A DNA stretch of 44,664 nucleotides from a virus. The DNA is taken from the IMG/VR virus record IMGVR_UViG_3300031857_000391, positions 1 through 44,664 of that record. The stretch is one strand, 5' to 3'. A program made the translations under genes and the position numbers. This document shows, piece by piece, positions 8,594-43,000 of this stretch. The first letter of the stretch is position 1, and each line of letters opens with the position of its first letter. Under the pieces are notes generated by a model. The model made no database searches and had not been told where the DNA came from. It worked only from the letters and a program-made list of their open reading frames with translations.

Positions 8594-8613
8594 GAGTTAA
8601 ACGCGTTTAACTC
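8594..8613. promoter_or_regulatory. Palindromic operator, copy 1
   Basis: A perfect 20-bp palindrome, GAGTTAAACGCGTTTAACTC, 15 bp upstream of the -35 box of the promoter at 8628-8656. Identical to copy 2. It is probably bound by a dimeric repressor or activator, as yet unidentified. Confidence 0.85.
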
Positions 8614-8627
8614 TCTACGTTAATTGC

Positions 8628-8656
8628 TTGACATAATTGATGGCATGTGATAGCAC
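8628..8656 (+). promoter_or_regulatory. Sigma70-type promoter between two operators
   Basis: A consensus -35 TTGACA (8628-8633), a 17-nt spacer, and an extended -10 (TG at 8648-8649, then TAGCAC 8651-8656). The predicted start near 8663 lies inside operator copy 2 (8658-8677), and copy 1 lies upstream. A protein bound there would block initiation. No gene follows for 500 bp, so the transcript would begin with a long untranslated part. Confidence 0.65.
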
Positions 8657-8657
8657 G

Positions 8658-8677
8658 GAGTTAAACGCGTTTAACTC
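8658..8677. promoter_or_regulatory. Palindromic operator, copy 2
   Basis: The same perfect 20-bp palindrome as copy 1, 64 bp further right centre to centre (about six helical turns). It covers the expected transcription start of the promoter at 8628-8656. Confidence 0.85.
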
Positions 8678-10457: not shown

Positions 10458-10477
10458 GAGTTAAACACGTTTAACTC
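10458..10477. promoter_or_regulatory. Palindromic operator, copy 3 (one central mismatch)
   Basis: GAGTTAAACACGTTTAACTC, which differs from copies 1 and 2 by a single central base (A for G). It lies 30 bp downstream of the -10 box of the perfect promoter at 10399-10427, within the transcribed leader. Confidence 0.82.
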
Positions 10478-11586: not shown

Positions 11587-11817
11587 ATGAAAGTCAACAT
11601 CGAAGTCACCGACACGTTCGGTCACGAACCGAACTACTCGTGGGTAAAGCGTGTCACGATTGAAGCCCCGGAGGGGATATCGAACTACAGCGTAGTACGG
11701 CGAGCGAAAGCCGCCGTAGGCTGGAATGGGAAGAGATGTACTACCGTTAACTACGGTGACATGATAGAATTAAGACCTTACGGTGAATGCACAGTGTGCT
11801 TTATCACGTTCGGTTAA
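11587..11817 (+). CDS. Small conserved phage protein, 76 aa
   Basis: A beta-rich 76-residue protein (MKVNIEVTDTFGHEPNYSWV at the start) of a type I have seen in other phages, with no assigned function. AAAGG lies seven bases before ATG 11587; an upstream in-frame extension would overlap the zinc-ribbon gene out of phase and is rejected. Its stop codon TAA (11815-11817) is inside operator copy 4, so the operator cannot move without altering the gene end. Confidence 0.75.
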   Translation: MKVNIEVTDTFGHEPNYSWVKRVTIEAPEGISNYSVVRRAKAAVGWNGKRCTTVNYGDMIELRPYGECTVCFITFG

Positions 11818-11828
11818 ACGCGTTTAAC
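11813..11828. promoter_or_regulatory. Palindromic operator, copy 4
   Basis: A perfect 16-bp palindrome, GTTAAACGCGTTTAAC (the core of copies 1-2 without the GA/TC flanks). It overlaps the stop of the 76-aa gene and ends 11 bp before the ATG of the DUF3150-like gene, placing it over that gene's ribosome-binding region. No clear promoter was found beside it. Confidence 0.82.
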
Positions 11829-11839
11829 AGGAGAAGGAA

Positions 11840-12772
11840 ATGATCTCAATTGCATCCGCTGCCATGCTCGGCAGCATCAACATCAGCGTGTGGGAAGCAC
11901 GTAAGCAGGACCGCAAGACTGCGGAGGAGGTGACCCAATCCAAGGGCGCACGCAGCAAGCGTGCCGCTACGGTACACAAGCACCTCTTCTCGGAGTGCCC
12001 CGCCCTTGAAGCCATCAAGTCTCTGCGCGGTGAGGTCCGCAACTGGTTCAACACCCAGACCCTGCCGTGGGACGACAACGGCAGACGCCTGATAACGACG
12101 GCGCAGTACCTCAACGTGATGGGTCAGGCAGCACGGTATCAGCAGCGGTTCGAAGACCTGACACGGGTCTTCGTCAACACGTACGCCACCGAGATCAGCA
12201 AGCAGGCTTTCGAGATGGGTGCACTGTTCGACCGTGCCGAGTACCCGCCCGAGTCCGAGGTTGCGGCTAAGTTCCGGTTCAGTTTCACCGTCGAGCCGGT
12301 GCCTGAGTCAGGTGACTTCCGCGTAGATGTGGGCATCGCTGCCGCTGCTGATCTGAAGGATCAGTATGAGAAGGCCGTGCAACTTCGCATCGCCTTCGCC
12401 GTCGATGACGCATGGCGCAGGGTGAAAGACCAAGTTGAATGGATCAAGGAAAGGATGGAGGCTGTCCTTTCGCACGACCCGGATGCAGTGGAGCAGGTGC
12501 CCACCACCGATGACACAGGCGCAGTCGTGTCCGTCGAGATCAAGAAGAAGCGCAGACCGAAGCTGTACGACAGCATGCTGGAGCAGGGGTTGGAGTTGAC
12601 CGCTCTGTTGCGTGACCTCAACGTCACGAACGACCCTCGCCTGGAAGCTGCACGCGTGGCACTGGAGACGGCACTGAGCCGCGTTGACATCGACTCTCTC
12701 AAGGAGTCCCCCGAGTTGCAGCAGGCCACACGGACAGCGATGGAGAACATCCTGTCGGAATTTGCTCTTTGA
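11840..12772 (+). CDS. DUF3150-like protein, first gene of MoxR/VWA trio, 310 aa
   Basis: A soluble, helical, charged protein with no catalytic motif, signal or membrane segment. Length, composition and position directly before a MoxR-type ATPase and a metallopeptidase-VWA protein fit the DUF3150 family as I know it from phages and plasmids. A charged coiled segment (about 185-225) contains EWIKERMEAVLSHDP. It begins at ATG 11840 with AGGAGAAGG upstream and operator copy 4 just before. It may be an adaptor or substrate-recognition partner of the ATPase, which is inference. An in-frame start at a later Met (residue 9) is possible. Confidence 0.75.
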   Translation: MISIASAAMLGSINISVWEARKQDRKTAEEVTQSKGARSKRAATVHKHLFSECPALEAIKSLRGEVRNWFNTQTLPWDDNGRRLITTAQYLNVMGQAARYQQRFEDLTRVFVNTYATEISKQAFEMGALFDRAEYPPESEVAAKFRFSFTVEPVPESGDFRVDVGIAAAADLKDQYEKAVQLRIAFAVDDAWRRVKDQVEWIKERMEAVLSHDPDAVEQVPTTDDTGAVVSVEIKKKRRPKLYDSMLEQGLELTALLRDLNVTNDPRLEAARVALETALSRVDIDSLKESPELQQATRTAMENILSEFAL

Positions 12773-12783
12773 CTTTTTAACCC

Positions 12784-12797
12784 GCCCCTTCGGGGGC
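12784..12797 (+). other. UUCG-tetraloop hairpin between cassette genes
   Basis: GCCCC-TTCG-GGGGC, a 5-bp G/C stem closed by the very stable C(UUCG)G tetraloop, in the 41-nt gap between the DUF3150-like and MoxR genes. There is no T-run after it (five T precede it), so it is not a good terminator for this strand. It may set mRNA stability or the ratio of the two proteins. Confidence 0.6.
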
Positions 12798-12813
12798 TCA
12801 TCAGGAGAAGCAA

Positions 12814-13866
12814 ATGAAACTCAACATCAACCAGTGCGCCAACCTCGTTGGCAGCATCGCTCAGCACACGACCGTTCTGATCGAGGGTCCGTCTGGCACG
12901 GGTAAGTCCAGCATCCTGCACCTCCTCGCGGAGAAGTTCCCGAACCATAGGCCTGTGTACATCGACTGCACGCAGATCGATGTGGGTGACATTCAGATCC
13001 CTGCCGTGGACCATGCCACGAAGACCAGCACGTTCTACCCCAACGAGGTGTTCGGTGTGCACGACGACAAGCCTGTCATCCTGTGCCTGGATGAGTTCGG
13101 TAAGGCCCCGCGCCCTGTGCAGAATGCACTCCTGCCTGTGCTGCTTGACCGGCGTGTGGGTCACCGCCCCTTGCCCGAGGGCAGCATCGTCTTCGGCACC
13201 ACGAACCTTGCCAGCGAGGGCGTGGGTGACACGATGCAGATGCATGTGCGTAACCGTATGTCCGTCGTGACGATGCGCAAGCCGACCGCCCCCGAGTGGG
13301 TCGAGTGGGGCGTAGCCAATGGCGTGCATCACGCAGTGCTGGCGTGGGTTACCGACACGCCGCAGGTGCTGGCCGAGGAGGACACGGTATCGAGCCCCGA
13401 CCAGAACCCGTACATCTTCCACAGGCAGGAGCAGCGCAAGGCGTTCGTGACGCCGCGTTCCCTCGCAGCCGCAGGTCGGATGCTCAACTGCCGTGATGCA
13501 GTGGGTGATGACGATGCGATGCGATGTGCGTTGGCTGGTTCGCTGGGTGCTCGTGCTGCGCTGGACCTGATGGCGTATGTGGAATTGGCCGATGGCCTGC
13601 CGACCTGGGCTTCGATCATCAACGCACCGGAGCAAGCCAAGCTGCCGACCACACCGACCACGAACATGATGACCGTGCACCGTGCAGTGCACCGCGTCGA
13701 GAAGGACACGCTCGACAACGTGTTGAAGTACATGGCCCGCCTGCCGAAGGAGTTGCAGGCAGTGTTCGCTACCAACCTGTTGCGTCAGAAGCACAAGTCA
13801 ACGTGGTCTGCACTCAACCGGGAGTTCACCAACTGGTGCATTACCAATAGCTGGATTTTGCGTTAA
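12814..13866 (+). CDS. MoxR-family AAA+ ATPase, 350 aa
   Basis: MoxR ATPases are AAA+ machines that, with a VWA-domain partner, remodel or mature protein complexes (known pairs: RavA-ViaA, NorQ-NorD, CbbQ-CbbO). Here Walker A is GPSGTGKSS (25-33), Walker B VILCLDE (88-94) and sensor 1 TTN (129-131), with arginines at 146 and 148 (RNRM) in the arginine-finger region. The C-terminal half (160-350) is a helical lid. CATCAGGAGA lies before ATG 12814. The metallopeptidase-VWA partner follows nine bases later. A long antisense frame over this gene is a codon-bias shadow. Confidence 0.88.
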   Translation: MKLNINQCANLVGSIAQHTTVLIEGPSGTGKSSILHLLAEKFPNHRPVYIDCTQIDVGDIQIPAVDHATKTSTFYPNEVFGVHDDKPVILCLDEFGKAPRPVQNALLPVLLDRRVGHRPLPEGSIVFGTTNLASEGVGDTMQMHVRNRMSVVTMRKPTAPEWVEWGVANGVHHAVLAWVTDTPQVLAEEDTVSSPDQNPYIFHRQEQRKAFVTPRSLAAAGRMLNCRDAVGDDDAMRCALAGSLGARAALDLMAYVELADGLPTWASIINAPEQAKLPTTPTTNMMTVHRAVHRVEKDTLDNVLKYMARLPKELQAVFATNLLRQKHKSTWSALNREFTNWCITNSWILR

Positions 13867-13875
13867 GGAGTTGTG

Positions 13876-15096
13876 ATGCTTAAAGCCGAAGACAAGATCA
13901 CCAAGGCACGCACTGCCATCATGCGTGACCCGCGTTTCGTAGCCATGTCCGGTGTGCTGATGGTAGGTAGCTGGGAAGTGCGCGATGACTGCCCGACCGC
14001 TGCAACCAACGGCAAGGATGTGATCTACGGGCGTGCGTTCGTTGACCAGTGCGACGACAAGTTGCTACGCTTCGTGGTTCTCCACGAATACTTCCATGTC
14101 ATGCTGATGCACATGACTGTGTGGCAATCGATGTTTGAGGAGGACGCGCAGACCGCCAACTTCGCAGCCGACGCAGTGATCAACCTCATGCTGCATGACC
14201 TCGACCCACGGGGTGACTTCCTCACCGTGTGGGAGCACGCTGTGCTGGATACCCAGTACCGTGGCATGGACACGGGCGAGATCTACCGGGCTCTGAAGAA
14301 GCAAGGCACCGGGCAGGGTGGTGGCAAGGGGCAGGGCGGCAGCCCCCGTTCAGCCAGCGGTGGCAAGGCCAAGGACTTCGACAAGCACGAGCCTGCCAAG
14401 CCGGGAGACGGTGACGCCAAGGGCGATGGTATGAAGCCGTTGACCCCCGACGAGGCCAAGGAGGTGCAGAAGACTGTGGACACAGCCCTGCGTCAAGGTG
14501 CGCTCATCGCAGGCAAGGTCGGTGGCAGCGTGGACCGCACGTTCGGTGACCTGCTTCAGCCGCAGGTCAACTGGGAGGATCAACTGCGTGAGTGGCTGCG
14601 TACCACTGCCGTGGGTAACGACCTGTCTACGTGGCGCAAACCGGCGAGGCGGTGGCTGGCGCAGGATTCCTACATGCCAAGCCGCTACACCGAGGCAGTC
14701 AAGCGCATCACCATCGGCGTGGATACGTCGGGCTCCATCGGGCATGACCAGTTGCGCCGTGCGCTGACCGAGATCATGTCAGCCTGCGAGTCTGTCCACC
14801 CCGAGATGGTCGATGTGATCTATTGGGACGCAGCCGTGGCAGGGCATGAGGTGTACGAGGGTGACGCTGTGCAGACGCTGCCGCAGACGACGAGACCTCG
14901 GGGTGGTGGGGGGACTGACCCCCGCTGCATGGCCCGCTACCTTGAAGAGCAGGGGATTGAGCCGGACTGCATCATCCAGTTTACGGATGGTTACGTCGGC
15001 AGTTGGGGGGATTGGAAAGCGCCTGTGCTGTGGGCTATCAGCACCAAGGGGATACAAGCCCCCACTGGTGTGTCGTTGTTTGTGCCCGCCGCTTGA
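13876..15096 (+). CDS. Zinc metallopeptidase-like + VWA-domain protein (DUF2201 type), 406 aa
   Basis: The N-terminal part (1-140) has the zincin motif HEYFH (70-74) and a helix AADAVINLML that usually supplies further ligands in the putative metallopeptidase domain. A Gly/Lys/Ser linker (about 143-190) follows, then a helical stretch and a C-terminal von Willebrand A fold with an intact MIDAS: DTSGS (283-287), GGGGTD (343-348) and FTDG (369-372). It should bind a divalent metal and interact with the MoxR ATPase encoded upstream. ATG 13876 has AAGGAG five bases before it; a GTG one codon earlier is less well spaced. Substrate unknown. Confidence 0.85.
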   Translation: MLKAEDKITKARTAIMRDPRFVAMSGVLMVGSWEVRDDCPTAATNGKDVIYGRAFVDQCDDKLLRFVVLHEYFHVMLMHMTVWQSMFEEDAQTANFAADAVINLMLHDLDPRGDFLTVWEHAVLDTQYRGMDTGEIYRALKKQGTGQGGGKGQGGSPRSASGGKAKDFDKHEPAKPGDGDAKGDGMKPLTPDEAKEVQKTVDTALRQGALIAGKVGGSVDRTFGDLLQPQVNWEDQLREWLRTTAVGNDLSTWRKPARRWLAQDSYMPSRYTEAVKRITIGVDTSGSIGHDQLRRALTEIMSACESVHPEMVDVIYWDAAVAGHEVYEGDAVQTLPQTTRPRGGGGTDPRCMARYLEEQGIEPDCIIQFTDGYVGSWGDWKAPVLWAISTKGIQAPTGVSLFVPAA

Positions 15097-15110
15097 GCGG
15101 ACCGGGTGTC

Positions 15111-15126
15111 GCCCGCTTCGGCGGGC
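15111..15126 (+). other. UUCG-tetraloop hairpin after the VWA gene
   Basis: GCCCGC-TTCG-GCGGGC, a perfect 6-bp stem with the C(UUCG)G tetraloop, 14 bp after the stop of the VWA gene and 2 bp before operator copy 5. It lacks a T-run. It may protect the 3' end of the cassette mRNA or act as a weak terminator. Confidence 0.6.
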
Positions 15127-15128
15127 AA

Positions 15129-15144
15129 GTTAAACGCGTTTAAC
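15129..15144. promoter_or_regulatory. Palindromic operator, copy 5
   Basis: A perfect 16-bp palindrome, GTTAAACGCGTTTAAC, identical to copy 4, in the 62-bp gap after the VWA gene. GGAGG of the next gene follows four bases later. With copy 4 it brackets the DUF3150-MoxR-VWA trio exactly. Confidence 0.83.
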
Positions 15145-29675: not shown

Positions 29676-32600
29676 TCACCGCCCCATCTGGATGTCCCGT
29701 GCCATCTTGCGCAGCATCATCGCCTGCTGAGCCAACTTGTTCTGGTCGATACGCAGCAGGTCGATCTGTTTGCGGCGCTCCTCGGGGCTCACGGACTTGT
29801 CTTGATTGACCGCCATCGCGGCTTTGTTGAGCGTGCGGATGCCTTCCATGACCCCTTGCACGGCACCACGGATCGAGTACAGGCCGATGTTATCCTTGAT
29901 GAACTGCTCCGCATCCTCGGGCTTGCGTTCCATCAAACGGTTCACTGTACCGTTGACCTGCTCGACGCGCTTCTCCAAGTCGTAGATGAAGTCGAGGTTG
30001 CGACTGCCGATGGGGTCCTTCGTCACCGCGCTCAGGCCCGTAAGCTGAGAACCAAGCTGTTGATGCAGGGGGCGGTCGGTGCGCCCCGGGTTGACCATCA
30101 TGTCAGCCATCGACAAGCCCAGCCCTGCAGCGGTGCCGAAGATGCCCCGGATCGCGTTCTCCAGCTTGATCGGAGACACAGCGAAGGCTTCGATGCCTGT
30201 AGCGTTGGCAGCGTCTTCCAGCCCCTTGGCTATCGCCTTCATGGCGTCCGAGGTGCCCGTGCCGTAGCGCTCAAAGGGGCGCAGGGCTTGCTGCGCCTGA
30301 CTCTCCAACGGACGGCCAAGAAAGAACGAGTAGTTGGCGATGTTCTCAAGGAACGGGCGGAGCACCTGCGGCGTGATGTTGGGCGACGAGAATACGTCGA
30401 TGCCACGGGAAGTCAGGTTACCCAGCACATCCAGAGCGGCTTGCTCTTCGTCGGTGCCGTACAGCTTGTAGTACCGGACGATGCGTTCAGGGATAGCCTT
30501 GAAGAAGAACGCGAGTTCAGCAGGAATCGGGATGACCGGAGTGAAGCCTAACTCCTTGCCGTAAGGCAGGACCCAGTTCGTATCCCGCACATGGTCAGGC
30601 AGGTTCTGGTATTCCTCATCGTCCTGCATCATCAGGGCATAGGCCAGACCCATCGAGGTCATGACTGCCATGCGCTTGTAGAACATCGACCGGGCGGTGC
30701 CTGTAGCCTGCCCCACCACGTTACCCGCAGCAGCCGTTGCCAGCTTGTCCATGCCTCGCGCATAGGCGTTGAAGAAGGGGATGATGCTGATCATCTGCCC
30801 CATGAGCCTTGAAGATCCACGGCGGCTGAAGTTGATGATCTCTCGTGCGGCAGACTCGGCTTGAGCCTTGTCCCCGGTTTCCTTCATCACTTGGTTGTAG
30901 ATAGCTTGGCGCACCGCAAGGTCTGATGCCTTGGCACCAGCTTCCATCACGCGCATGATCGAGGAGCCCAAGCTCTCCTTCTTCGCCCCGGCTTCCTCAA
31001 GGATGTTCTTCAGGTTGCCTTGCTGTGTGAAGTCGAACGTGCCGACAATGCCAAGCCCTTCCAGCGCTTTGATGTCCTTGGGCTTGCGCTTGAAGATCTC
31101 GTTGACCCAGTTCTTGGGGAAGTTGAGCATCACGCTCTTGACAAGCGCGGCGTTGTTCTTCACCCCTGCGTAGGTGTAGGCGCGGACGATGTCGTCGAAG
31201 ACCTGCTTGATAGCGAACGGTGGCAGGGAAGTCACACCCGCACGCAGCACCTGCGAACCCCGCTGGAATGCCTTGAGTACGTTGGACAGTTGCGGGTCAG
31301 CGATGCTGAACGCCACCACATGCGCCGGGTCAGGCACGTAGAACGAAACGGGCTTGCCGTCGTCGAACACGGTGATCATGTCACCGGGAGAGTCAGTCTT
31401 CGGCTTGTTGGGGCGCTTGAACGCAGCGCCCATCAGCACCATGTCCTTCAGCGCACGTAGAGCCGCATCGTTCTTCATCGCCTCCTTCGTTCCCCAATCC
31501 ATGAGCTTGGAGAAGTTCTCGGTGACGGATGTGGTCTTGCGCTCTTCGCTGCCTTCCAGCTTGCGGATGTTCTTCAGTGCAGCTACGCCACGGTTGGCAC
31601 CACGGGTCGCATTGGCCCAGGCGTTTTCGTACTCTCCAATACGCTCAAAGGGGATGTAGCCGATGGCGTCCTTGTAGTCCTTGGCCTGCTCTTCAGAAAT
31701 GCGCTTCGCCTGCACAAGTGTGTCCAGCAGGTTGAAACGGATCGTGTCGAGGTCAGACGAGACACCCTTGATGAAGTCGTCCTTCTGGAACGCAGCTTCC
31801 AGTGCGTCGATCTGCTTGTCGTCCAGCAGCAGCTCGACCTGCTCATCAGGGGGCAGGGTCTTGTTCTTCTCCCGCAGGTTGTATTCCCGGTGCCCGTAGA
31901 GCACGGTGTCTACCTTGGTGCGGAACTGCTCGTAGGTCTCGCCTTGTTGCTTGGCAGCTTCAGCGATGCGCCCCATGACGCCCTGGTAGCTGATGTTCTG
32001 CCCATCGGCGTTCTTCAGTTCTGTGGCAACGATGAGCCCAGTGTCGAAGCCCAGCCCGCCTTGCTCCTGCGCCGCCTTGCTGACGCGGGTTGCGTCGAGC
32101 GCCCGAGAGATGAGCACCATCGGGTTCAGCCTGCCGGTCTTCGTAGTGCGGGTCGCACCGCCGTAGGCGTTGACGAAGAAGTCCTCCAGCGCAGCCAGAG
32201 AGTCCGTGAGCTTGACCCGTGCCTTGAGGGCAGGGTTGTTGGACAGATCGGTCTTGATGCGCTGGGTGAGCGTCTGGCGCTCCTTATCCCCGATGACATC
32301 GACACCTTGGACAGCAGCTTCGGTTTGAGCGGTGATGCGGTATTGCGCTTCGTCGGTTGTCGCTGCCGTTTTGCCTTCTGCTTTCTTCCCACGCTTTACC
32401 CAAATGCGTGATTGTCGTAGGAGATCTTCGACTTGATCACGACTGAAGTAATGTGAACCCTTAAAGATCTTTTGAAGCGCGGTGCGGATGACGCCAACGA
32501 TACGCTTATAGAGCGGGCGCGAACGGTCCTTCTCCTGCATATCTGCAAGAACTTCCTCCACTGCCACATCACGGGTCAACTTCGGCTGACGCTGCATTTT

Positions 32601-35561
32601 CTCAACAGCCTTCATCCGAATCTCAGCATCGCTGGTGTAGATCCTACCCATCGTTTCGCTGTACTTATCTCCGAGCACACCACGTAGGCCGTAGTGCCCA
32701 GTGACTTCATGCGCGATGGTGTCGAAGATTTCTACAGGCGCGGCGTTGTTGTCCGCAATTAACCAGACTTTGCCGTTGTTGTACAGCCCCGGAACCTGCC
32801 CCGAAACTTTATCGCGTTTTATCTGCTCTTGGATATTCGCAGGGAGGTCGGTTTCTGACTGCACCACCTCGATAGGTGGTAGGTTGGTCCAACCCTCAGT
32901 GACCTGAGCAACTACCTTCTCTACCCGCTCCTTAGTCATCCCAGTCGTGGGCTTCTGACGAAGTTGGTATTGGGACTCGTCTGCCTCTTCATCGCTCAAC
33001 CGACGCGTCTTGTCCTCTGTTTCGACTTCTTCTGCCTCAACACCCTCTTCAGCAACGCGGTCGGTCTCAGTCTGCTCCGCAGCAGCCTCTTCCTCAGTAC
33101 GGACCACACGATAGGCGCGGTCGAGTGCCGACTGCATCCCCCTACGGTCTGTCTTGGTACGAGTAGCAATCTCAGCGTTGAGCTTCTTGATGACCTCTAG
33201 GTTGCCGCCACGCTTTGGGTCGTAGTTCGACGCACGGGCGTAGATCTCAGCAATCTGCTTGTTGTCGAGCCCTGTGAAGTCCAGCTTCCCGTCAGAAGTC
33301 AGTGCACCGCGCAGGAACCCGGCTGCTTTTCCGGGCTGGTTCTTCTTCGGCGCTTCGTACAGCACACCACGAGTGGGCTGCAGGTCGGTGGCCCCCGTCC
33401 CTGCCTCAGAGACGTTCTTGCCACGGACGATGATGTCCGTCTGCCCAGCATGGAACCGACTCACCACATCGGCAGTTATACCCATCGCCTGTGCGGCGCG
33501 GGTCACGTTGGCTCCAGTGCTTCGCGCAAGGCCCGCCATCTCAGCAGCATCTTCGCGTGAGTAGGTGCTCGGCAGGAAGTTGCCATCGGCATCCACGCCG
33601 ATGTAGTTCAGGATCGCCTCGTATATCTTGGGCGCGGCGCGGGCCTTGATCAGGTTCTCCCGTACAGCGTCGAGGTCGATGATGGGCCTTTCCCCACGGG
33701 TACCCACTACACCAGAAGCCTCCATCTTCTCCAGACGATCTACAAGATCACCCTCTTCCTTGGGTGCCAACGCATCAAGCTGCGCTTGCAATTCATCGTA
33801 CTTGGCACGGGCGGGTGACTTCTTGGCCGGAGCCTTACCGTTACGGCGCAGCGCATCCATCTGCGCCTTGATCTGATCCACCTGCTTTTGGAACGCAGTG
33901 CCCATTGCAGTGGGTGGACCTTCGTCGCGCAGTTCTGCGCGGTACACCTCGGCTTGCTCCTCGGTCAGGAGTCCGGTATCCACTGCCCGGTCGATGTCTT
34001 CCTGGGTATATTCAGGAGTGACGGGTGCGGGCTTGGGTGCCGGTGCCGGGGTTACTGCAGCGGGCTTTGCTTCTTCTCTTCTAGCAGGCTGTCCAGCATC
34101 CGCGACAGGAGGAACCACTCCAGTTGGTTCAACGGCTCCAGCCCCTTCGGGGGCGGCGACGGCAGCGGGTCCGCCAGCCACTGGAGCGCCTGCTCCACCT
34201 GCTTCTGGTTCAGTTGGTGTAGTTGCGACACTGGGTGTCTCCGATACTGGGGGTGCAGGTGGTGTAGGTTCAACAACGGGCGCTCCGCCCACCGGAGCCT
34301 CTGCCGGGGGCACAGCAGGGGTTTCAATTACCGGGGGCGGAGCAAACTTGGCCTTGAACTCCGTCAGCTTGGCGCGTGACTCTTCGCTACCCAGACCCTT
34401 GGTCAGGTAGTTCTCGATGTCAGCAAGCACCTCTGTACGCTGCTCGGGGTTCTCAAGGTCCTTGCCCAGCATGCGCCGGTAGATCGGCTGCTTCTTTGAG
34501 ATGCCAAGCCCTTCGATCTCAGCAGGCTGCATACCGCCAGCGGGCGGCTCACCGGGCTTTCTAACCTTGGGCTCCTCGATGGGCGGTGGCGCTGGTGTTT
34601 CCACCACGGGCGGCGGTGCTGGGGGTTCAGGTGCCGGTGCAGGCACCGGAGGTGCTGGGGGTTGTTGTGCGGCTTTGGCCGCTGCCACTTCAGCCGCAAG
34701 GCGTTCGGCACGCTCAATTGGTGTTTCACCGGGCAGAGTACCCGGAGCAGGCTGCGCAGCACGTGCGCGACGACCCAACGCAAGGTCCATCAACCCCTGC
34801 ACGATGGCACCAGTGGCACCGCCGTAAGCGGCCTGCTCACCCAGACCCTCAATGAGTTCCTGCTCGGGCTTGTAGACACCCTTGGCGATCAGGTTCTGAG
34901 CGAAGCCTGATGCAGCTTCCTGTGCTGCTTCTTCCCCACCAGCGACAAGCGCCCGCTTGACCAACTGGACGCCCTGAGCCGTGGCAGCGTCAGGAATGCG
35001 CGACAAGATGCGGAAGGGAGCGAAGACCTCCATCGCTCCAGGGATGATGCCCAGCGCCGTGGCTGTGCTGCGTTGTTCAGCAGTGGCACCTCCTTGCTCG
35101 GCACGCCCGCGTGCTTCCCCAGCACCGGCTCCGACACCAAGACCGACTGCGCCGATGCGCCCCGCAAGACCCAGGGGGCCAGCAGCCAAGAACGGCACCG
35201 TTGAGCCAATGGCTTCGCCCAGCTTACGCCCAACAGTGTCTTCGTATCCTGCGGAAGCAGCGAACGGGGCCTTGGCTACGCCAGCGATGCTGGCAATCTT
35301 CTCCCGAGCGGCTTTTTCGTACTGTTCTGGCAGGAGCGCAGAGGCACCCACAGCCGCGCTTTCAACAAGACCTACTGCACCGGGCACCAGCCCCTTGAAG
35401 CCTTCTTTGACTTGACCGAGGACAGTGGTTTCAGGCGGTTTCTTCGCTGCGTCTGGGTACTGAGCAAGTAGTGCCTGAACAACCAGCGCGTTGCTGGCCC
35501 CCGCTGGACCCTCAATTTCGTAATCTTTTCCGTTGGGGGCAGTGACGCGATACAAGGCCAT
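29676..35561 (-). CDS. Giant internal virion protein with zincin motif and LPD38-like end, 1961 aa
   Basis: Probably a virion protein ejected into the host with the DNA. Seen: an N-terminal ~50-residue beta domain (ALYRVTAPNGKDYEIEG), a Gly/Ala-rich hydrophobic region (about 100-270) that could insert in a membrane, long Pro/Ala linkers (about 280-520) and a zinc-protease motif HEVTGHYG (about 946-955). A C-terminal region (about 1480-1820) resembles the LPD38 domain of phage polyvalent proteins, for example IPFFNAYARGMDKLATAAAG and WVLPYGKELGFTP. The zincin could cut peptidoglycan-linked or host proteins on entry. Start ATG 35561 is one base after the upstream stop. Confidence 0.78.
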   Translation of the reverse strand: MALYRVTAPNGKDYEIEGPAGASNALVVQALLAQYPDAAKKPPETTVLGQVKEGFKGLVPGAVGLVESAAVGASALLPEQYEKAAREKIASIAGVAKAPFAASAGYEDTVGRKLGEAIGSTVPFLAAGPLGLAGRIGAVGLGVGAGAGEARGRAEQGGATAEQRSTATALGIIPGAMEVFAPFRILSRIPDAATAQGVQLVKRALVAGGEEAAQEAASGFAQNLIAKGVYKPEQELIEGLGEQAAYGGATGAIVQGLMDLALGRRARAAQPAPGTLPGETPIERAERLAAEVAAAKAAQQPPAPPVPAPAPEPPAPPPVVETPAPPPIEEPKVRKPGEPPAGGMQPAEIEGLGISKKQPIYRRMLGKDLENPEQRTEVLADIENYLTKGLGSEESRAKLTEFKAKFAPPPVIETPAVPPAEAPVGGAPVVEPTPPAPPVSETPSVATTPTEPEAGGAGAPVAGGPAAVAAPEGAGAVEPTGVVPPVADAGQPARREEAKPAAVTPAPAPKPAPVTPEYTQEDIDRAVDTGLLTEEQAEVYRAELRDEGPPTAMGTAFQKQVDQIKAQMDALRRNGKAPAKKSPARAKYDELQAQLDALAPKEEGDLVDRLEKMEASGVVGTRGERPIIDLDAVRENLIKARAAPKIYEAILNYIGVDADGNFLPSTYSREDAAEMAGLARSTGANVTRAAQAMGITADVVSRFHAGQTDIIVRGKNVSEAGTGATDLQPTRGVLYEAPKKNQPGKAAGFLRGALTSDGKLDFTGLDNKQIAEIYARASNYDPKRGGNLEVIKKLNAEIATRTKTDRRGMQSALDRAYRVVRTEEEAAAEQTETDRVAEEGVEAEEVETEDKTRRLSDEEADESQYQLRQKPTTGMTKERVEKVVAQVTEGWTNLPPIEVVQSETDLPANIQEQIKRDKVSGQVPGLYNNGKVWLIADNNAAPVEIFDTIAHEVTGHYGLRGVLGDKYSETMGRIYTSDAEIRMKAVEKMQRQPKLTRDVAVEEVLADMQEKDRSRPLYKRIVGVIRTALQKIFKGSHYFSRDQVEDLLRQSRIWVKRGKKAEGKTAATTDEAQYRITAQTEAAVQGVDVIGDKERQTLTQRIKTDLSNNPALKARVKLTDSLAALEDFFVNAYGGATRTTKTGRLNPMVLISRALDATRVSKAAQEQGGLGFDTGLIVATELKNADGQNISYQGVMGRIAEAAKQQGETYEQFRTKVDTVLYGHREYNLREKNKTLPPDEQVELLLDDKQIDALEAAFQKDDFIKGVSSDLDTIRFNLLDTLVQAKRISEEQAKDYKDAIGYIPFERIGEYENAWANATRGANRGVAALKNIRKLEGSEERKTTSVTENFSKLMDWGTKEAMKNDAALRALKDMVLMGAAFKRPNKPKTDSPGDMITVFDDGKPVSFYVPDPAHVVAFSIADPQLSNVLKAFQRGSQVLRAGVTSLPPFAIKQVFDDIVRAYTYAGVKNNAALVKSVMLNFPKNWVNEIFKRKPKDIKALEGLGIVGTFDFTQQGNLKNILEEAGAKKESLGSSIMRVMEAGAKASDLAVRQAIYNQVMKETGDKAQAESAAREIINFSRRGSSRLMGQMISIIPFFNAYARGMDKLATAAAGNVVGQATGTARSMFYKRMAVMTSMGLAYALMMQDDEEYQNLPDHVRDTNWVLPYGKELGFTPVIPIPAELAFFFKAIPERIVRYYKLYGTDEEQAALDVLGNLTSRGIDVFSSPNITPQVLRPFLENIANYSFFLGRPLESQAQQALRPFERYGTGTSDAMKAIAKGLEDAANATGIEAFAVSPIKLENAIRGIFGTAAGLGLSMADMMVNPGRTDRPLHQQLGSQLTGLSAVTKDPIGSRNLDFIYDLEKRVEQVNGTVNRLMERKPEDAEQFIKDNIGLYSIRGAVQGVMEGIRTLNKAAMAVNQDKSVSPEERRKQIDLLRIDQNKLAQQAMMLRKMARDIQMGR

Positions 35562-35562
35562 A

Positions 35563-37131
35563 TTACTGTCCTACAGGACGAACTTTGAACTGGCTAAGAA
35601 GTTCGGGAGAAACCCCTGCAGCAGGTGGGGGTGCGGAAGCAGCGGCACCATACCCTTCTTCAGCCAGCACCCGCTTCAACCGCTCGTCGATCATTCTAGT
35701 CCTGTACGTTTCCGCGTTGGCGGGGTCACGCACTTTCATCGATACGTACCTGGGATCTTTCCCCAGTTGTGCGTCCACATCTTTTTCAGCTTGTGCACGG
35801 AGTCGAGCGATATCCCGAGGAGTGAGAGCACCTTTCGCTTCCCCTGCTGTATTACGGATATTTGCAATCTTCAAAGCATTCGCACGGTCTTCCGCAGCGG
35901 TCTGTGCCGTGATGTCTTGGCCGCGCAATTTCACCGCACCTTCATACTGAGCCCCTGCGCTTCTTTGTCGAATTTCCTGCGCCTTGAGTGCGTTGTCACG
36001 GGCCTTCTCCATGAGAGCGGAGGCTTCCTTCTCAAGAGCAATCGCACGGTCGAGCCTACCAAGTTGCCGCTCTTGTTGGGCCTTTTCAAGCAGTAGTTGT
36101 GCCCGTTGATTTTCAAGTCTTGCTTGACTAAAGGCATCCGCTGCGGCTTTTTGAGCATTCATAAACTGAATGTCTGCACGCGCCGCGCCGCCAGCACCTT
36201 GCATCCCGCCCAAAAGTTGTTGGATTACACGGTCTAACCCAAGACTTTCTTTTCTTGACGCTTCCGCCGATTCAACATCTGCCATACGTTGACGTAGCGC
36301 TTCGATCCCTTTGGCACTCAGGTCAGGCAGTGTCTTTTCAAACTCAGCACGTTTACCTTCTGCTTCACGAAGTCGGTTGACATCACCTTCTCCTGCTGTC
36401 ATGTAAGGCGCACCAGCAACGGCGATACCCGCCGTGTCATATGTTGGGCGTGCAGCAAGCTGTGCAATGCCTCCTTGAGGCGCTGACGGTGCCGCTGGTG
36501 GAGCGGGAGGACGAGGTGCCGGTGGGCGAGGTGCTGGCGGACGGGGCGCAGGAGTCGCTTCGCTTCTTTGCTGCGTTTGCCTCTGAGGAGCAGCAGCCAG
36601 TCTCTCCTTTGTCATTGGCCCCAAAAGTTCTTCAGCCACGGCTTCAATTACCCGTTGTCTTTCAGACTTCATCGGCCCAAACAACTCATCTTCTTCTCGG
36701 CCTGTCCTTGCTTCGCGTGTCGGCTCAACGTAATTTTCGTACACAGAAGGGAACTGCGGATCAACATATGACCCTTCTTTCCCCGCATAACCAACAACAC
36801 CACCCTGCGCCGCAGTGAACGTGCGCATGTTGTCAGCAGGCAACCCAGCCACGCCTTGGCTTTGCTGCGCCATTTGGCTTTGTTGCAGTGCTTGTTGCAT
36901 TTGAGCCTGTGTTACGGGCTGCGCAGCCTGCGCCGCGTTTACGGCTTGCTGCCTAACACCGGGCATCAGAGCACCGATGCCGGGGGGTGTTGTTGGAGGG
37001 GATAATTTCTGTTGCGCGGCCTGAGCTACTTGTGCAGCAACAGTGGGCGTCTGTTCGGGTGTGACCATCTGTGCTGTTGCAAGAACAGCATCAAGTTCTG
37101 GTACCCCGGTTCTAGATTGTTGTGCGTACAT
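35563..37131 (-). CDS. Coiled-coil virion protein, 522 aa
   Basis: Gln/Ala-rich N-terminus (1-110), a Pro-rich tandem linker (APRPP repeated, about 195-230), then a long coiled coil rich in Ala, Gln, Arg and Glu (about 265-420). It has the motif GGVVGYAGKEG (about 110-120), similar to GGI-type motifs in the neighbouring 966-aa protein. Position in the block of giant virion proteins and the coiled-coil make-up suggest an internal core or ejected protein. No enzymatic motif. Start ATG 37131 with GGG upstream, three bases after the 966-aa gene stop. Confidence 0.72.
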   Translation of the reverse strand: MYAQQSRTGVPELDAVLATAQMVTPEQTPTVAAQVAQAAQQKLSPPTTPPGIGALMPGVRQQAVNAAQAAQPVTQAQMQQALQQSQMAQQSQGVAGLPADNMRTFTAAQGGVVGYAGKEGSYVDPQFPSVYENYVEPTREARTGREEDELFGPMKSERQRVIEAVAEELLGPMTKERLAAAPQRQTQQRSEATPAPRPPAPRPPAPRPPAPPAAPSAPQGGIAQLAARPTYDTAGIAVAGAPYMTAGEGDVNRLREAEGKRAEFEKTLPDLSAKGIEALRQRMADVESAEASRKESLGLDRVIQQLLGGMQGAGGAARADIQFMNAQKAAADAFSQARLENQRAQLLLEKAQQERQLGRLDRAIALEKEASALMEKARDNALKAQEIRQRSAGAQYEGAVKLRGQDITAQTAAEDRANALKIANIRNTAGEAKGALTPRDIARLRAQAEKDVDAQLGKDPRYVSMKVRDPANAETYRTRMIDERLKRVLAEEGYGAAASAPPPAAGVSPELLSQFKVRPVGQ

Positions 37132-37134
37132 ATT

Positions 37135-40035
37135 TCAACCCTTCAGGCCCAGTGCCTCAAGACTCTTTACCAAGTCTGACAAACCACCCCTAACTTCACC
37201 CAACTGACTCGTATTCGCCGTCGTCGCAGCCGTTGCAACAGGCAGACCCTGAAGCATTTCCTTCTGGAACCGCAGCTTGGTGTATGGATCAAGCAACTCC
37301 GTCTCGTACTGCCTTTGAAGAGCAGTGATACCTTCTTGCTCAATGCCACGCTGCTGCTGACCCGCTCCGGCCATCATGTCAGCAAGGGTCTTGGCTTGGC
37401 CTTGCTCCACATTGAACTGCCCCATCGCCCGGTCATAGGCGTTTGCATACCCAGTACCGATAGCTTTGTTCTGCTCCTGCAGAAGATTACGTTGCGTCTC
37501 AGCATCCATGATGGCTTGACGGGATCCGCCAAACGCACCAGCCTGAGCCAGTTTTCCAGCCGTCCCCATCTGCGTGATCTGGCTTTGCCGACGCAGTTCA
37601 TCCAGTTGAGGGGTCAGCACTGCACTCAGGTACGGATTCATGTACTGAGAGGCAACCCCGGTCGGACCAGTTGCTTGCCCGGTCATACCACCCGGAGTCA
37701 TGCTTGGAAGTTGATAAGCACCTTGTGCTGAGAACGACTGCCCCAGTTGGCCGGGGAAGTTCAAACCTTCTAGGCCGCTGAACACCTTGCTTTGCAGAGG
37801 AGCCGTCCCGGCGACCATCGGTCCTTGGTAGGCTTGATACGGTGTGTTAGTAAGAGCAGATGTCTTACTGAGCATGTCACCCACATACGGGCCTGCCCAT
37901 GAAGAGATGTTGGTCTCAGTGGAAGTTCCAAGCGGGGCCGTAGGCGGTGCGGGGGCAGCACCACCAGCATTGAAAGCAACCGCGCCACCACCAGCGTAAC
38001 CAGCGATGCCGCCCGGTGTAAATTTTTCCGGGTTGATCTGACGGCCTTGCTTCTTGGTCCCTGTCCGAGCTTTACGCACACGATCCATCATGCCGTAGAG
38101 AACCTTTGCGCCAGCATCAGAGTTGCCATTACCCAGATGTGAGACCACATCAGCGGGAATCACGAACTCACCGTGGCTCAATTTGGCAGGCTGCACACCG
38201 TCGATGTTACTCGGGATCTTGTCTGCCATGCCATCAGTTTGGCCTCGGAGATACCTAGGTGGCAACTTGCCACCTCGGGCAAGACCCATCAGGCCACCTT
38301 GGGCGGCTTCAACTTCTTCCCCTTGTCCAAGTTGAAAATTAGGCATGGGGAATCGCTGCGGAGTTTGAGGGGTCTGTGGTTGAGATGCCGGTTGCGCAGC
38401 AGTTTGCTGAGCCATAGGCTGAGCCATAGGTTGCGCAGGTTGCGCTATTGGTTGCGAAGGTTGCTGCTGGCCGCCAAGATAGCCTTGTGTGCCCATCCAA
38501 TCAAGCTCATCTTGCTGCACTCCAGCACCGAGCAACTGATCAGGCGTCACTTGGTTTTGGTTGTACCAATCAATCTTTTGGCCGGCATCGTAGCCCGACC
38601 ACCCGGAAGGAAGCGACCCTGCAAGACCAGTGAGAGCGGCGGGTTGATTAACAGGCGTGTTACCAAGATGCACTCCAGGCTGGAAATGCGCTTGTGATGA
38701 TGTTCCTGCACCTTGCAAAAAGTCCTGCACTGATCCAACTTTTATGCTGCCTACGTCATACCCAACATAGGGCGTAGCAGGAACTGAGGTTTGGTTTTCA
38801 TACGCCTGTCCGTAAGTGCCTGTTGGTTGAATGCCGTGTTTTGCAAGAACATTTGACGCTTGCAAATAATCCCACGTTGGCAAATATGCTCCCGGCTGTA
38901 GATCTCGCGTCCCTTCAAACACAGACACTTGATTAAACTTGTTCGCCGTATTGGCAAGCAAATTGTCTGTGTAGTTGTAAATCAGGTTTGGATCGGTGCC
39001 CTCAGGAGCGGTTGATCCACCAAGCACCAGCCATGCGGGCTTATTAGTTTCCTGCGCATGATCACCGATCATACCGGTGATCTGGATCAGTTTCTCTTGA
39101 ACTCCCGGCGTAGCGGTTTGTGCGCTGACAACATATGGATCAGTCACAACAAAATCCGCAGCGTTCATGTAATCCTTCAACTGGTCAAAGGATGCACCGG
39201 GCATGGAGCGAGGATGCGCGGAGCCGGACTCAAGGTCTTCGCCAATTGCGTCTTTACCAAACGCATCCCAAGAATATGGCGACACAACCACGCCCGCCTG
39301 GAGTCCTTGATCACGCGCCCAAGCAACGGCTTTGTTTAGGTCTTCCCCAATTGGAGCGTTGGGGTTCCAGTACCCTTCGTCGCTGACAACAACTCGGTTG
39401 TTAGGAATGTCAAAGAACATCAGCACCGGCTTTTCAATACCGGGCACATCCACCATTCTGGCGTTTGCGCCAACGTGGTAGTCATAGAACTGAGGGCCTG
39501 CCTTTGGTTGGCCAACATCGCCGCCACCTTCAAATTTACGCAGCGATGCAATACCACCTTTGGCCTTACCGCCAGTAGAAGATGGACTGTCCAGATCAGG
39601 ATTTGTAGCAGGAGGCGTAGCGGGTGGAGGCAACGCACCACCGGCAGCAGGAGGCGCAGCGGGGGCAGCGCTATACGAGGAAGTAAAGAACTGTCGCCCC
39701 ATCACAGGCGAAGCACTCTGAGCGTACGGTTTGTACTCCGGCTGAGCAATCGGCGTTCGGGTGAACTGCTTGTTCATGTCGATGGAGCCTTTCCACCCGG
39801 CGGTCTGAGGTCTGTTCAGACTGGGCATGATCAAACCAAGTACACCTAGCGCCGCGTTTACATCATTGGCCGTGGTGTTGCCAGACTTCAAGCGGTCAAA
39901 GATGCCTTTGAACGGAGTTAGCAGGCTGGTGAGGCCAGAAAGGTTTGGGGCCGCCGACAAATAATCTTGATATTCGGTCCCTGTCATTGTTGCGGGGCCA
40001 GTAACTTCACCCAGGCGGTCCAACTCGTCAGACAT
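37135..40035 (-). CDS. Large virion protein with possible TIM-barrel/glycosidase-like domain, 966 aa
   Basis: Start ATG 40035 (AAAGG upstream); an in-frame TTG two codons earlier is less likely. Residues about 185-430 look like a folded alpha/beta barrel (KPVLMFFDIP, KAVAWARDQGLQAGVVVSPY, ADFVVTDPYVV, KPAWLVLGGSTAPEGT), which recalls a glycoside hydrolase or similar TIM barrel, though catalytic residues cannot be fixed. Residues about 478-521 contain a module also present in the 1332-aa protein. Then KLSHGEFVIPADVVSHLGNG (about 610-630), a block typical of this phage protein type, and a Gln-rich helical C-terminus. Internal or spike-associated virion role inferred. Confidence 0.75.
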   Translation of the reverse strand: MSDELDRLGEVTGPATMTGTEYQDYLSAAPNLSGLTSLLTPFKGIFDRLKSGNTTANDVNAALGVLGLIMPSLNRPQTAGWKGSIDMNKQFTRTPIAQPEYKPYAQSASPVMGRQFFTSSYSAAPAAPPAAGGALPPPATPPATNPDLDSPSSTGGKAKGGIASLRKFEGGGDVGQPKAGPQFYDYHVGANARMVDVPGIEKPVLMFFDIPNNRVVVSDEGYWNPNAPIGEDLNKAVAWARDQGLQAGVVVSPYSWDAFGKDAIGEDLESGSAHPRSMPGASFDQLKDYMNAADFVVTDPYVVSAQTATPGVQEKLIQITGMIGDHAQETNKPAWLVLGGSTAPEGTDPNLIYNYTDNLLANTANKFNQVSVFEGTRDLQPGAYLPTWDYLQASNVLAKHGIQPTGTYGQAYENQTSVPATPYVGYDVGSIKVGSVQDFLQGAGTSSQAHFQPGVHLGNTPVNQPAALTGLAGSLPSGWSGYDAGQKIDWYNQNQVTPDQLLGAGVQQDELDWMGTQGYLGGQQQPSQPIAQPAQPMAQPMAQQTAAQPASQPQTPQTPQRFPMPNFQLGQGEEVEAAQGGLMGLARGGKLPPRYLRGQTDGMADKIPSNIDGVQPAKLSHGEFVIPADVVSHLGNGNSDAGAKVLYGMMDRVRKARTGTKKQGRQINPEKFTPGGIAGYAGGGAVAFNAGGAAPAPPTAPLGTSTETNISSWAGPYVGDMLSKTSALTNTPYQAYQGPMVAGTAPLQSKVFSGLEGLNFPGQLGQSFSAQGAYQLPSMTPGGMTGQATGPTGVASQYMNPYLSAVLTPQLDELRRQSQITQMGTAGKLAQAGAFGGSRQAIMDAETQRNLLQEQNKAIGTGYANAYDRAMGQFNVEQGQAKTLADMMAGAGQQQRGIEQEGITALQRQYETELLDPYTKLRFQKEMLQGLPVATAATTANTSQLGEVRGGLSDLVKSLEALGLKG

Positions 40036-40037
40036 GA

Positions 40038-43000
40038 TCAAGCCTTTCTAGATTTCAGCTTGCCACGCAAGCCTTCACGTTTTTCTTCACGCTCTGCTTT
40101 GAGCGCGGTGGTCAACTGGAGCAGATCTGCTTCGTCCGTCTGCATCAGTTCTTGAATGAAGTTAGCCAACTCTGGCGTCATCTTAGGCATAGCCAATTGT
40201 GCCGCAGGAGACGGCGCAGGGCTAGTTGGTTTAACCGCTGGAGGTTTAACTGTCGGCGCAGGAGGTGCCGGCGTAGGTGCGGGAGGCGCAGGCGTTGGTG
40301 CTGGGGGCGCAGGTGTTGGCGCAGGCGGTGCCGGTGGAGGCCCGGAAACAATCTCGCGCAACTCTTCCTCTGTCACAGGCGGCAGAACGTCCTCTCCAGG
40401 GGGTGTGGTCGCGGGAGGTTGTGCGGGGGGCTGAGACGGTGGCTGCGCTGGAGGTTGTGCAGGCGGTTGAGCCGGAGGAGGCGCAGGTGTAGGAGCTTGA
40501 GTTGTTGGCGCGGGTGCTGGTGCAGGAGCCGGCGCTGCGGTAGTTACTTCTGCAGGAGCCGGTGCAGGACTAGGTGCCGGAGCAGGTGCTTCGGTCTTAG
40601 TTTCCGTTGTGCTTGGGGCAGGTGCAGGAGCCTCTGTTTTAGTCTCAGTTGTCGTCGGAGCAGGAGCGGGTGCCTCAGTCTTAATTTCAGTGGTCGTAGG
40701 TGCCGGAGCAGGTGCCTCGGTCTTTGTTTCCGTTGTGCTCGGAGCAGGCGCAGGTGCCTCAGTCCTAGTTTCCGTAGTTGCCGGGGCGGGAGCCGGCGCT
40801 TCCGTTTTGGTTTCCGTGGTTGTGGGGGCTGGAGCGGGTGCTTCTGTTTTGGTTTCAGTCGTCGTTGGGGCAGGCGCGGGAGATGGCGCGGCAGGTGCCG
40901 GGGCTTCCGTCTTGGTCTCAGTTGTACTCGGCGCTGGTGCAGGCGCTTCCGTTGAAGCAGGACTTGGAGCCGGTGCCTCAGCAGGAGCGGTAACTTTAGC
41001 GGGGGCTGGAGCGGGCGCAGGTGCTTCTGAGGGCGCTGGTGCTGGACTAGGAGCGGGAGCTTCGGCAGGAGCAGGACTTGGCGCAGCAACTTCAGTCTTT
41101 ACTTCTGCGGGTGCCGGAGCTGGCGTCGAAGGCGTTACATCCGCAAGTGTCAGCGTCTCGCCTGTTATTGGATCTACTGCGACAGGAGTTGTAAGGTCAA
41201 CTGCGGGTGCCGGAGCAGGGCTTGGAGCAGGACTTGGAGCGGGGCTAGGTGCCGGAGCAGGTGCTGGCGCAGTTACCAATGCCGTTGTTGTAGCAGGAGC
41301 AGGGCTTGGTGCGGGGCTTGGTGCGGGGCTTGGAGCAGGGGGCGGAGAAGGCAGTACATCGCCAAGCGTAAGCACTTCGCCAGTTGCGGGATCAGTGGCA
41401 ATCGGCGTGGAAAGATTCAACGCGGGAGCAGGAGCAGGAGCCGCAGGCGTTGGTGCAGGCGTTGGTGCAGCGCCAATATTTACGGTATCTCCGGGCTTGG
41501 AGTCGGGTGAGACATCAACAACTTTGGTGTTCCCGCTGGGATCAACCACCAGCGCCGTGCCCTGCGTGGGGTCCGTTGACAAAATTGTCCCCGTGGCGGG
41601 TGCAGCGGCAGGGGCAACCGATGGCGTGACTGAGGGGCTTACCGTAGCAGTTACTCCAAGGTCTTCTTTTGTTACATTTTCCCCGGTGACTGGATTAGTC
41701 CACAACACTTCGTAAGCATCTAACGCTGGCGTACCTGAGGGAGTAACTGAAGGAATATCTGAAACAGCTTGCCCACCCAAAATGTCGTTTACGTAGTCGT
41801 TAATTATTTGGCTTGTGTCCAAATCAAAATCGGGGGTTGTTACATTTTCGGCAGTCCTAATGCTTGACGTAGGTATAGACGCGGAACCCCCCAAAATATC
41901 ACCTGTGGTTATAGGGTTTCCATCTTCATCTTGCCCAACTATTGTGGCTGTATCTAATTGATTCCCGCCATCTGGGATTACAGACCCGGTAATAGGATCT
42001 ACAGAGCTTCCCCCAATAACGTCAATTAATGCATCAATGGCAGCAGGGTTTGCAATTCTTGTGCCAGCGGTAACAAAAGGTGGCAGTGTGGTTACACCCC
42101 CGTCGCTACCAGTATTATCTTTACCTCCGCCATCTTTCCCCCCGCCTGCGCTTGTAGCAGATGTACCTTCTCGTGTCCTAGACGTATCCGAAATGTATGG
42201 GTTATACGTTGCCAACCCCGGTACTTGATTGACAAGCTCCGGTTTCATCGCTGCTTGGCGTAGCTGGTCAGTAAAAAATGCGCGCTCTTCTGCTGTCAGG
42301 GTTGGATCTGACATTAGACCCATCATTTCTGACGCAAACGTAGCTGCTCCTGGACCCGCAAACCATCCTTGACCACCAGTACCTGAAGTTAATAAAGCAC
42401 CAGGGTAAACATTGGTGTATTCACTTCCGGCACCCCTAAATAAATCTCTTGCTGTCATTGCCGCCTGCGGCAATGCTGGTGTTTGTGCCACACCAGATTG
42501 AACTGGTTTTTTTAACAACTCTAATAAATCACCCTGTCCTGGGGTTCTTTCTAGTATTGTTTGTAGCAATGATGCTGCTTGCGGTTTTTTATTTAATAGT
42601 TCATGTAATGCAGATGTGCCAGTATCTGTAACTGTTGTATTTAACTTGTTGGCTAAATCAGGGTTGGCTAGTGCCAATAACAACGTAGTTTCGTCAGCGT
42701 CAGGCGCTCTTCCGGCCCCATTTGCAAACTGTTCTACAAAATTGTCAAAGATACTTGCTTGTTCTGGGGATGCAAATTGCGTTGGTTCAAACGGCTCTGC
42801 GTTTGCAGCTACTTGTTTTAGATATGAATTAAAATTATCAAATGCAGTACCATACCGGGCCGTAAGGCGGGCAGTTTCGTCACCTGTGTCTGTCTTGCTG
42901 TAGTAGTTCTGAAGACCTTGAATTGCAGGGCCAGCGCTAACTACCGCGTTAAATATTTTCTGCGGATCGCCGCCAGACTTGGCAACATTAATTGCCGCGT

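Follow-up and report, generated by a model that had tools for sequence, protein, structure and literature searches.

The window analysed in this study is the whole of the IMG/VR virus record IMGVR_UViG_3300031857_000391 (44,664 bp). Its minus strand carries the genes for the portal, the large terminase, a GroES-like protein and giant virion proteins, and a rightward arm on the plus strand (~7.9-29.6 kb) opens with small early genes, followed by those for a DNA polymerase, exonucleases, a helicase and a primase. Near the beginning of this rightward arm, on the strand opposite to the structural genes, lie three plus-strand ORFs, designated A, B and C, with the following features:

11840-12772, plus strand: gene A, 310 aa, distant DUF3150 protein (ORF and profile-profile comparison)
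12814-13866, plus strand: gene B, 350 aa, AAA_5 ATPase of the MoxR/CobS/midasin type, phrog_1297 (Pfam, PHROG)
12886-12909, plus strand: Walker A of B, GPSGTGKS (sequence, alignment of 20 homologues)
13087-13095, plus strand: Walker B of B, LDE (sequence, alignment of 20 homologues)
13873-15096, plus strand: gene C, DUF2201_N metallopeptidase-like and DUF2201 VWA/MIDAS domains, phrog_1314 (Pfam, PHROG)
14083-14097, plus strand: zincin motif of C, HEYFH, aa 71-75 (sequence, homologue alignment)
14722-14736, plus strand: MIDAS DTSGS of C, aa 284-288 (sequence, homologue alignment)
14902-14916, plus strand: MIDAS threonine loop of C, GGGGT, ending at T348 (sequence, homologue alignment)
14983-14991, plus strand: MIDAS TDG of C, aa 371-373 (sequence, homologue alignment)

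All three genes are under purifying selection (dN/dS 0.10-0.22). On the minus strand, a phage-type GroES-like co-chaperonin near the portal gene (2345-2767) is common to HTVC023P, DSL-LC04 and CRP-902, and positions 29676-44036 encode very large virion-arm proteins of 1961, 968 and 1332 aa; no PHROG matches the 968-aa and 1332-aa proteins.

The three proteins

The naming of A as DUF3150 in the sequence-only reading holds when profiles are used on both sides, where the comparison with plasmid DUF3150 proteins gave a P of 7.6e-7, but the direct Pfam search was weak (PF11348, E 0.03; 14.1 bits, below the gathering cut-off of 24.9 bits). Because A scores under this cut-off but is related at the profile level, it is best regarded, from its sequence, as a distant relative of DUF3150 rather than a formal member of the family. 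The single-sequence comparison of A with the pCAR1 DUF3150 protein was not significant. Its predicted model is mainly helical (pLDDT 87) and had no match in the PDB at E<=0.001; its dN/dS was 0.12-0.17.

B matches AAA_5 at 6.5e-10 (Pfam) and phrog_1297 at 2.7e-54, and midasin is the best PDB match of its profile (8e-34). Walker A and B, the sensor-1 Asn and the conserved Arg motifs are all intact, and dN/dS was 0.10-0.11. A scan of contigs from bacterial chromosomes with B found no relative.

C comprises 407 aa from its GTG start, or 406 aa from the ATG at 13876. It exceeds the gathering cut-offs of both DUF2201_N (PF13203; 6.1e-29, 101.9 vs 23.2 bits) and DUF2201 (PF09967; 1.3e-11, 45.1 vs 26.4 bits), matches phrog_1314 at 2.2e-75, and has a dN/dS of 0.19-0.22. 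Sequence and alignment confirm that HEYFH and a full MIDAS stand intact in one protein, as had been claimed. C is a candidate active zincin metallopeptidase, a class defined by HExxH and a third ligand, of which HExxH is present. Matches of the predicted model of its VWA domain include NorD in the NorQD complex and the Rea1/MDN1 MIDAS; together with the likeness of B to midasin, this fits an AAA-ring-plus-MIDAS mode of action.

PHROG 1314 bears the name 'HNH endonuclease'. Since neither C nor N4 gp25 has an HNH Pfam domain, and the phrog_1314 proteins checked carry DUF2201_N and DUF2201 only, this name was rejected; a misannotation seems to have spread through phrog_1314, N4 gp25 (L005:3165-4307) and numerous phage records in RefSeq.

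Most homologues of C keep HExxH. The motif is gone in five contigs (L071, L072, L073, L075 and L076), which form one clade with support 1.0; ANxTMR-type residues stand in its place, and HExxH occurs nowhere in the protein. The clade retains an intact MIDAS and the ATPase motifs, with a dN/dS of 0.26-0.37 indicative of purifying selection, which argues that remodelling, and not proteolysis, is the constant function. This new observation suggests, at the level of sequence, that remodelling is the conserved activity of the trio, while peptide cleavage would be optional or repurposed. The clade thus reveals a dispensable activity, and contradicts a zinc protease as the obligatory function of the trio.

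Conservation of the trio among phages

Co-occurrence was assessed in 21 mostly distant loci (L060-L080), taken from loci located with A alone. The genes were not found singly in unrelated places: in 18 of these 21 A-bearing viral loci, B and C lie a few kb away at most, on the strand of A, and the remaining three are short contigs. The order may be A-B-C, B-A-C or B-C-A, with extra small genes interspersed. A complete trio is also present in Synechococcus phage MinM2, and a B-C pair (20-27% identity) is found in N4-like phages, beside which tblastn detected no DUF3150 gene. No trio was found in the 50 kb examined of each of CRP-902 and RW. In the record of one sampled locus, L067 (G009:C1:4629-6143), the large-terminase match spans an in-frame TGA, a possible case of stop-codon recoding, frameshift or sequencing error.

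The partnership of a MoxR-type AAA+ protein with a VWA protein, joined by a third conserved gene, is therefore borne out by intact motifs and by joint conservation in many phages and plasmids. Since the B-C pair has been described in N4-like phages and, independently, in group 2.2 jumbo phages, this pair is already known, and the trio is a real, conserved module of an already described kind.

Among the neighbours in 14 distant loci, no defence or virion gene was recurrent. Furthermore, padloc reported no VMAP-type or other known defence system in the window; all its hits were weak and generic, to ATPases and peptidases, and a known defence system was rejected as the identity of the trio.

Palindromes, promoters and hairpins

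The sequence-only reading described the trio as bracketed exactly by two operators and cleanly delimited. The relevant features of the window are:

8594-8613, no strand assigned: palindrome copy (8597), first of a pair around promoter-like TTGACATAAT...GCATGTGATAG
8658-8677, no strand assigned: palindrome copy (8661), second of the pair around the same element
10461-10474, no strand assigned: palindrome with one mismatch, beginning 34 bp past a perfect sigma-70 promoter
11813-11828, no strand assigned: palindrome GTTAAACGCGTTTAAC, just upstream of the ribosome-binding site of A
12781-12800, plus strand: UUCG hairpin between A and B
15111-15126, plus strand: UUCG hairpin 3' of C
15129-15144, no strand assigned: palindrome GTTAAACGCGTTTAAC, 3' of C and upstream of the ribosome-binding site of the next gene

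The two 16-bp palindromes beside the trio (11813 and 15129) are indeed identical and exact. However, the 14-bp core occurs at five sites in the window (<=2 mismatches allowed, one copy having one mismatch; 0.03 expected), all in the early region, so that the trio is not bracketed exactly. Nor are the positions constant: among 13 loci of the window clade the palindrome may precede A, fall in the A-B gap, occur after C only, or be absent, and a 91% identical relative (L022) has no site. Sites so dispersed and differently placed in relatives are no cassette borders, and the description as cleanly delimited falls with them. The palindromes are read as operator-like sites of a putative early regulon; no HTH domain was detected in ten proteins searched for a regulator, nine of them early-arm ORFs.

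The pair at 8594-8677, 63-64 bp apart around TTGACATAAT...GCATGTGATAG, is conserved together with this element in relative L007 (4243-4321), and resembles a control region for early genes. The sigma-70 promoter at 10399-10427 matches the consensus perfectly (TTGACA-17-TATAAT).

Both UUCG hairpins, at the A/B junction and after C, are present as described, and some relatives likewise have hairpins, of varying sequence, in the A-B gap or behind C. The window contains five such hairpins vs 2.9 expected; without enrichment, they were discarded as a special feature of the trio.

Plasmid relatives and a possible anti-restriction link

The trio was found in many phages and in conjugative plasmids; its palindrome flanks are variable or absent among the window-clade loci. 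Burkholderia conjugative plasmids carry close versions of the module. MOBH conjugative plasmids hold a further branch, represented by pCAR1, where the genes for an AAA ATPase, for DUF3150 and for a zincin/VWA protein with HECSH and DKSGS are adjacent; such a block is also reported for R478, Rts1, SXT and R391 (PMC2642839). DUF3150 was detected by tblastn in 1,118 of 72,556 plasmid records, 969 of the 1,118 being conjugative, and it adjoins recT/bet and a lambda-type exonuclease in the six regions examined. More than a thousand sequenced plasmids carry the trio, and the literature found gives its function as unknown or proposed only.

The phage and plasmid trios are very distant from each other. 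Profile-profile comparison gave P values of 7.6e-7 for A, 1.6e-4 for the zincin part of C and 2e-8 for B, vs 0.22 for an unrelated control; the B match is unspecific taken alone, since both proteins are AAA+.

In the IncC plasmid pVCR94deltaX (pVCR94dX) the gene order is AAA, hyp301, ssb, bet, exo, DUF3150, VWA, so that the homologous trio genes surround ssb-bet-exo. This order fits the published vcrx089-093 operon, in which, according to PMC11602122, vcrx091-093 are Red-like recombination genes and vcrx089-090 anti-restriction genes, whose deletion raised EcoBI restriction 424-fold and EcoKI restriction 906-fold. By gene order, we infer that vcrx089 is the IncC AAA+ gene and vcrx090 is hyp301. 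The link is suggestive and no proof, because vcrx089 and vcrx090 were deleted jointly, so that hyp301 alone could carry the anti-restriction effect, and because the operon tested, vcrx089-093, does not include the IncC DUF3150 and VWA genes. Furthermore, in this phage the trio adjoins no Red system.

Of the three roles put forward in the sequence-only reading, anti-defence appears, with moderate confidence, to be the best supported by this analysis. Its outside support comes from the IncC relative, while the transfer of the phenotype from plasmid to phage would rest on homology. The link may make anti-defence the most promising and a directly testable role of the trio. It connects the phage genes to a region with a published anti-restriction phenotype, and makes their function testable by a simple knockout. 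Two further points are new here: the homologous trio around ssb-bet-exo in IncC plasmids, with vcrx089 as its AAA+ gene by gene order, and the lack of a detectable trio in virion-module cousins.

A putative remodelling machine and its possible roles

We propose that the trio is an early-expressed AAA+/MIDAS machine acting on a host complex, likeliest a defence enzyme; we give this statement as a whole a probability of about 0.4. That the trio is an AAA+/MIDAS remodelling machine is very probable. Its role in counter-defence is tentative, somewhat short of even odds, and is drawn from the homologous IncC module, where gene order points to vcrx089 as the AAA+ gene.

In the proposed mechanism, A, B and C would together form the machine, expressed from the early/replication arm. 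B, as its family suggests, would form the ATPase ring. C would dock via its MIDAS/VWA domain, with the zincin-derived domain presenting or clipping the client, and A would be a dedicated third component, probably an adaptor or scaffold. The machine would dismantle or inactivate a host protein complex, presumably shortly after DNA entry. The likeliest class of client would be host defence against incoming DNA, for instance a type I restriction enzyme, much as ClpXP acts on HsdR in restriction alleviation.

A broader version of this proposal is doubtful. Phages and conjugative plasmids may share a self-contained 'restriction alleviation' machine, built from an AAA+ ring, its partner with MIDAS and zincin domains, and DUF3150 as adaptor; on entry it would take apart host complexes that restrict or otherwise target DNA. 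Some lineages would unfold their client without a peptidase site, and the N4 core pair would belong to it. The B-C pair is part of the core gene set of the whole N4-like phage family, and if this version is true, two core genes of N4 are part of such a machine.

Alternatively, the machine could be a replication or recombination helper that remodels or recycles the replisome or recombinase complexes of its own element. Plasmid neighbours include ssb-recT/bet-exo, DNA polymerase and helicase genes lie nearby in N4-like phages, and among the 74 neighbours in the 14 distant loci the most frequent family is DNA_pol_A, with three. However, early arms hold replication genes anyway, which makes adjacency weak evidence, and cousins with related replication genes manage without the trio. 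We consider this role rather unlikely.

Virion maturation had also been suggested for the trio. In that reading the MoxR-VWA pair would act as an assembly chaperone and, with its peptidase, mature structural proteins, as PMC7824862 proposes for jumbo phages, citing an archaeal ATV precedent; the giant virion proteins of the window (29676-44036) would suit such a role. However, the complete genomes of HTVC023P and DSL-LC04, structural cousins that share portal, terminase and GroES with the window, have no detectable trio, which disfavours this reading. Plasmids, which have no virion, carry the module, the trio lies in the plus arm and the structural genes in the minus arm, and several trio-bearing viral records have no phrog_38 terminase, though these may be fragments. 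Virion assembly is thus unlikely as a general role, with a low probability overall, and may be a lineage-specific one.

A metal-insertion chaperone or cobalamin-related auxiliary gene of the CobS/CobT kind is very improbable: the plasmid AAA+ protein matches CobS TIGR01650 at 2.8e-36, but far under the cut-off (125 vs 558 bits), B has no match to the CobS family, C does not fall in the CobT family, and the neighbours examined include no CobN or cobalamin gene. Lastly, a mobile cassette bounded by palindromes, as the identical pair on either side of the trio had suggested, can be set aside, given the scattered and variable sites, gene gaps within the trio of 6 to 951 bp among relatives, and close relatives without sites.

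Comparison with known systems

RavA-ViaA, NorQ-NorD, CbbQ-CbbO and midasin resemble the trio in combining an AAA+ ring with a MIDAS-domain partner; none of them is known to have a zincin domain or DUF3150. At the NCBIfam cut-off, the trio does not belong with the cobaltochelatase subunits CobS/CobT. Ternary conflict systems built on MoxR and vWA, VMAP among them (PMC7159879), likewise join these two to a third protein, but differ from the trio in that protein and in their effectors.

In N4-like phages (Schitoviridae), gp24 and gp25, core genes of unknown function (PMC4193335), similarly encode an AAA+ ATPase and a DUF2201_N-VWA protein near DNA polymerase genes; they differ from the window trio in their low identity (20-27%) and in having no DUF3150 gene detected alongside. 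Group 2.2 jumbo phages have a MoxR AAA+ protein whose vWA cochaperone carries a metallopeptidase domain at its N-terminus, a pair proposed for virion assembly; the likeness is by description only, and DUF3150 is not named in the passages of PMC7824862 examined.

The window trio falls outside the IncC vcrx089-093 anti-restriction operon as such, no hyp301 homologue having been detected in the window; the likeness to that operon rests on the common AAA+/DUF3150/VWA set. The CobS-like AAA/DUF3150/VWA trio of MOBH plasmids (pCAR1, IncC) differs in its larger C (~600 aa), which has a long acidic linker and another zincin second motif, and in its linkage to ssb-bet/recT-exo. Yet it has the same three components, with HExxH and MIDAS in one protein, as found in this phage.
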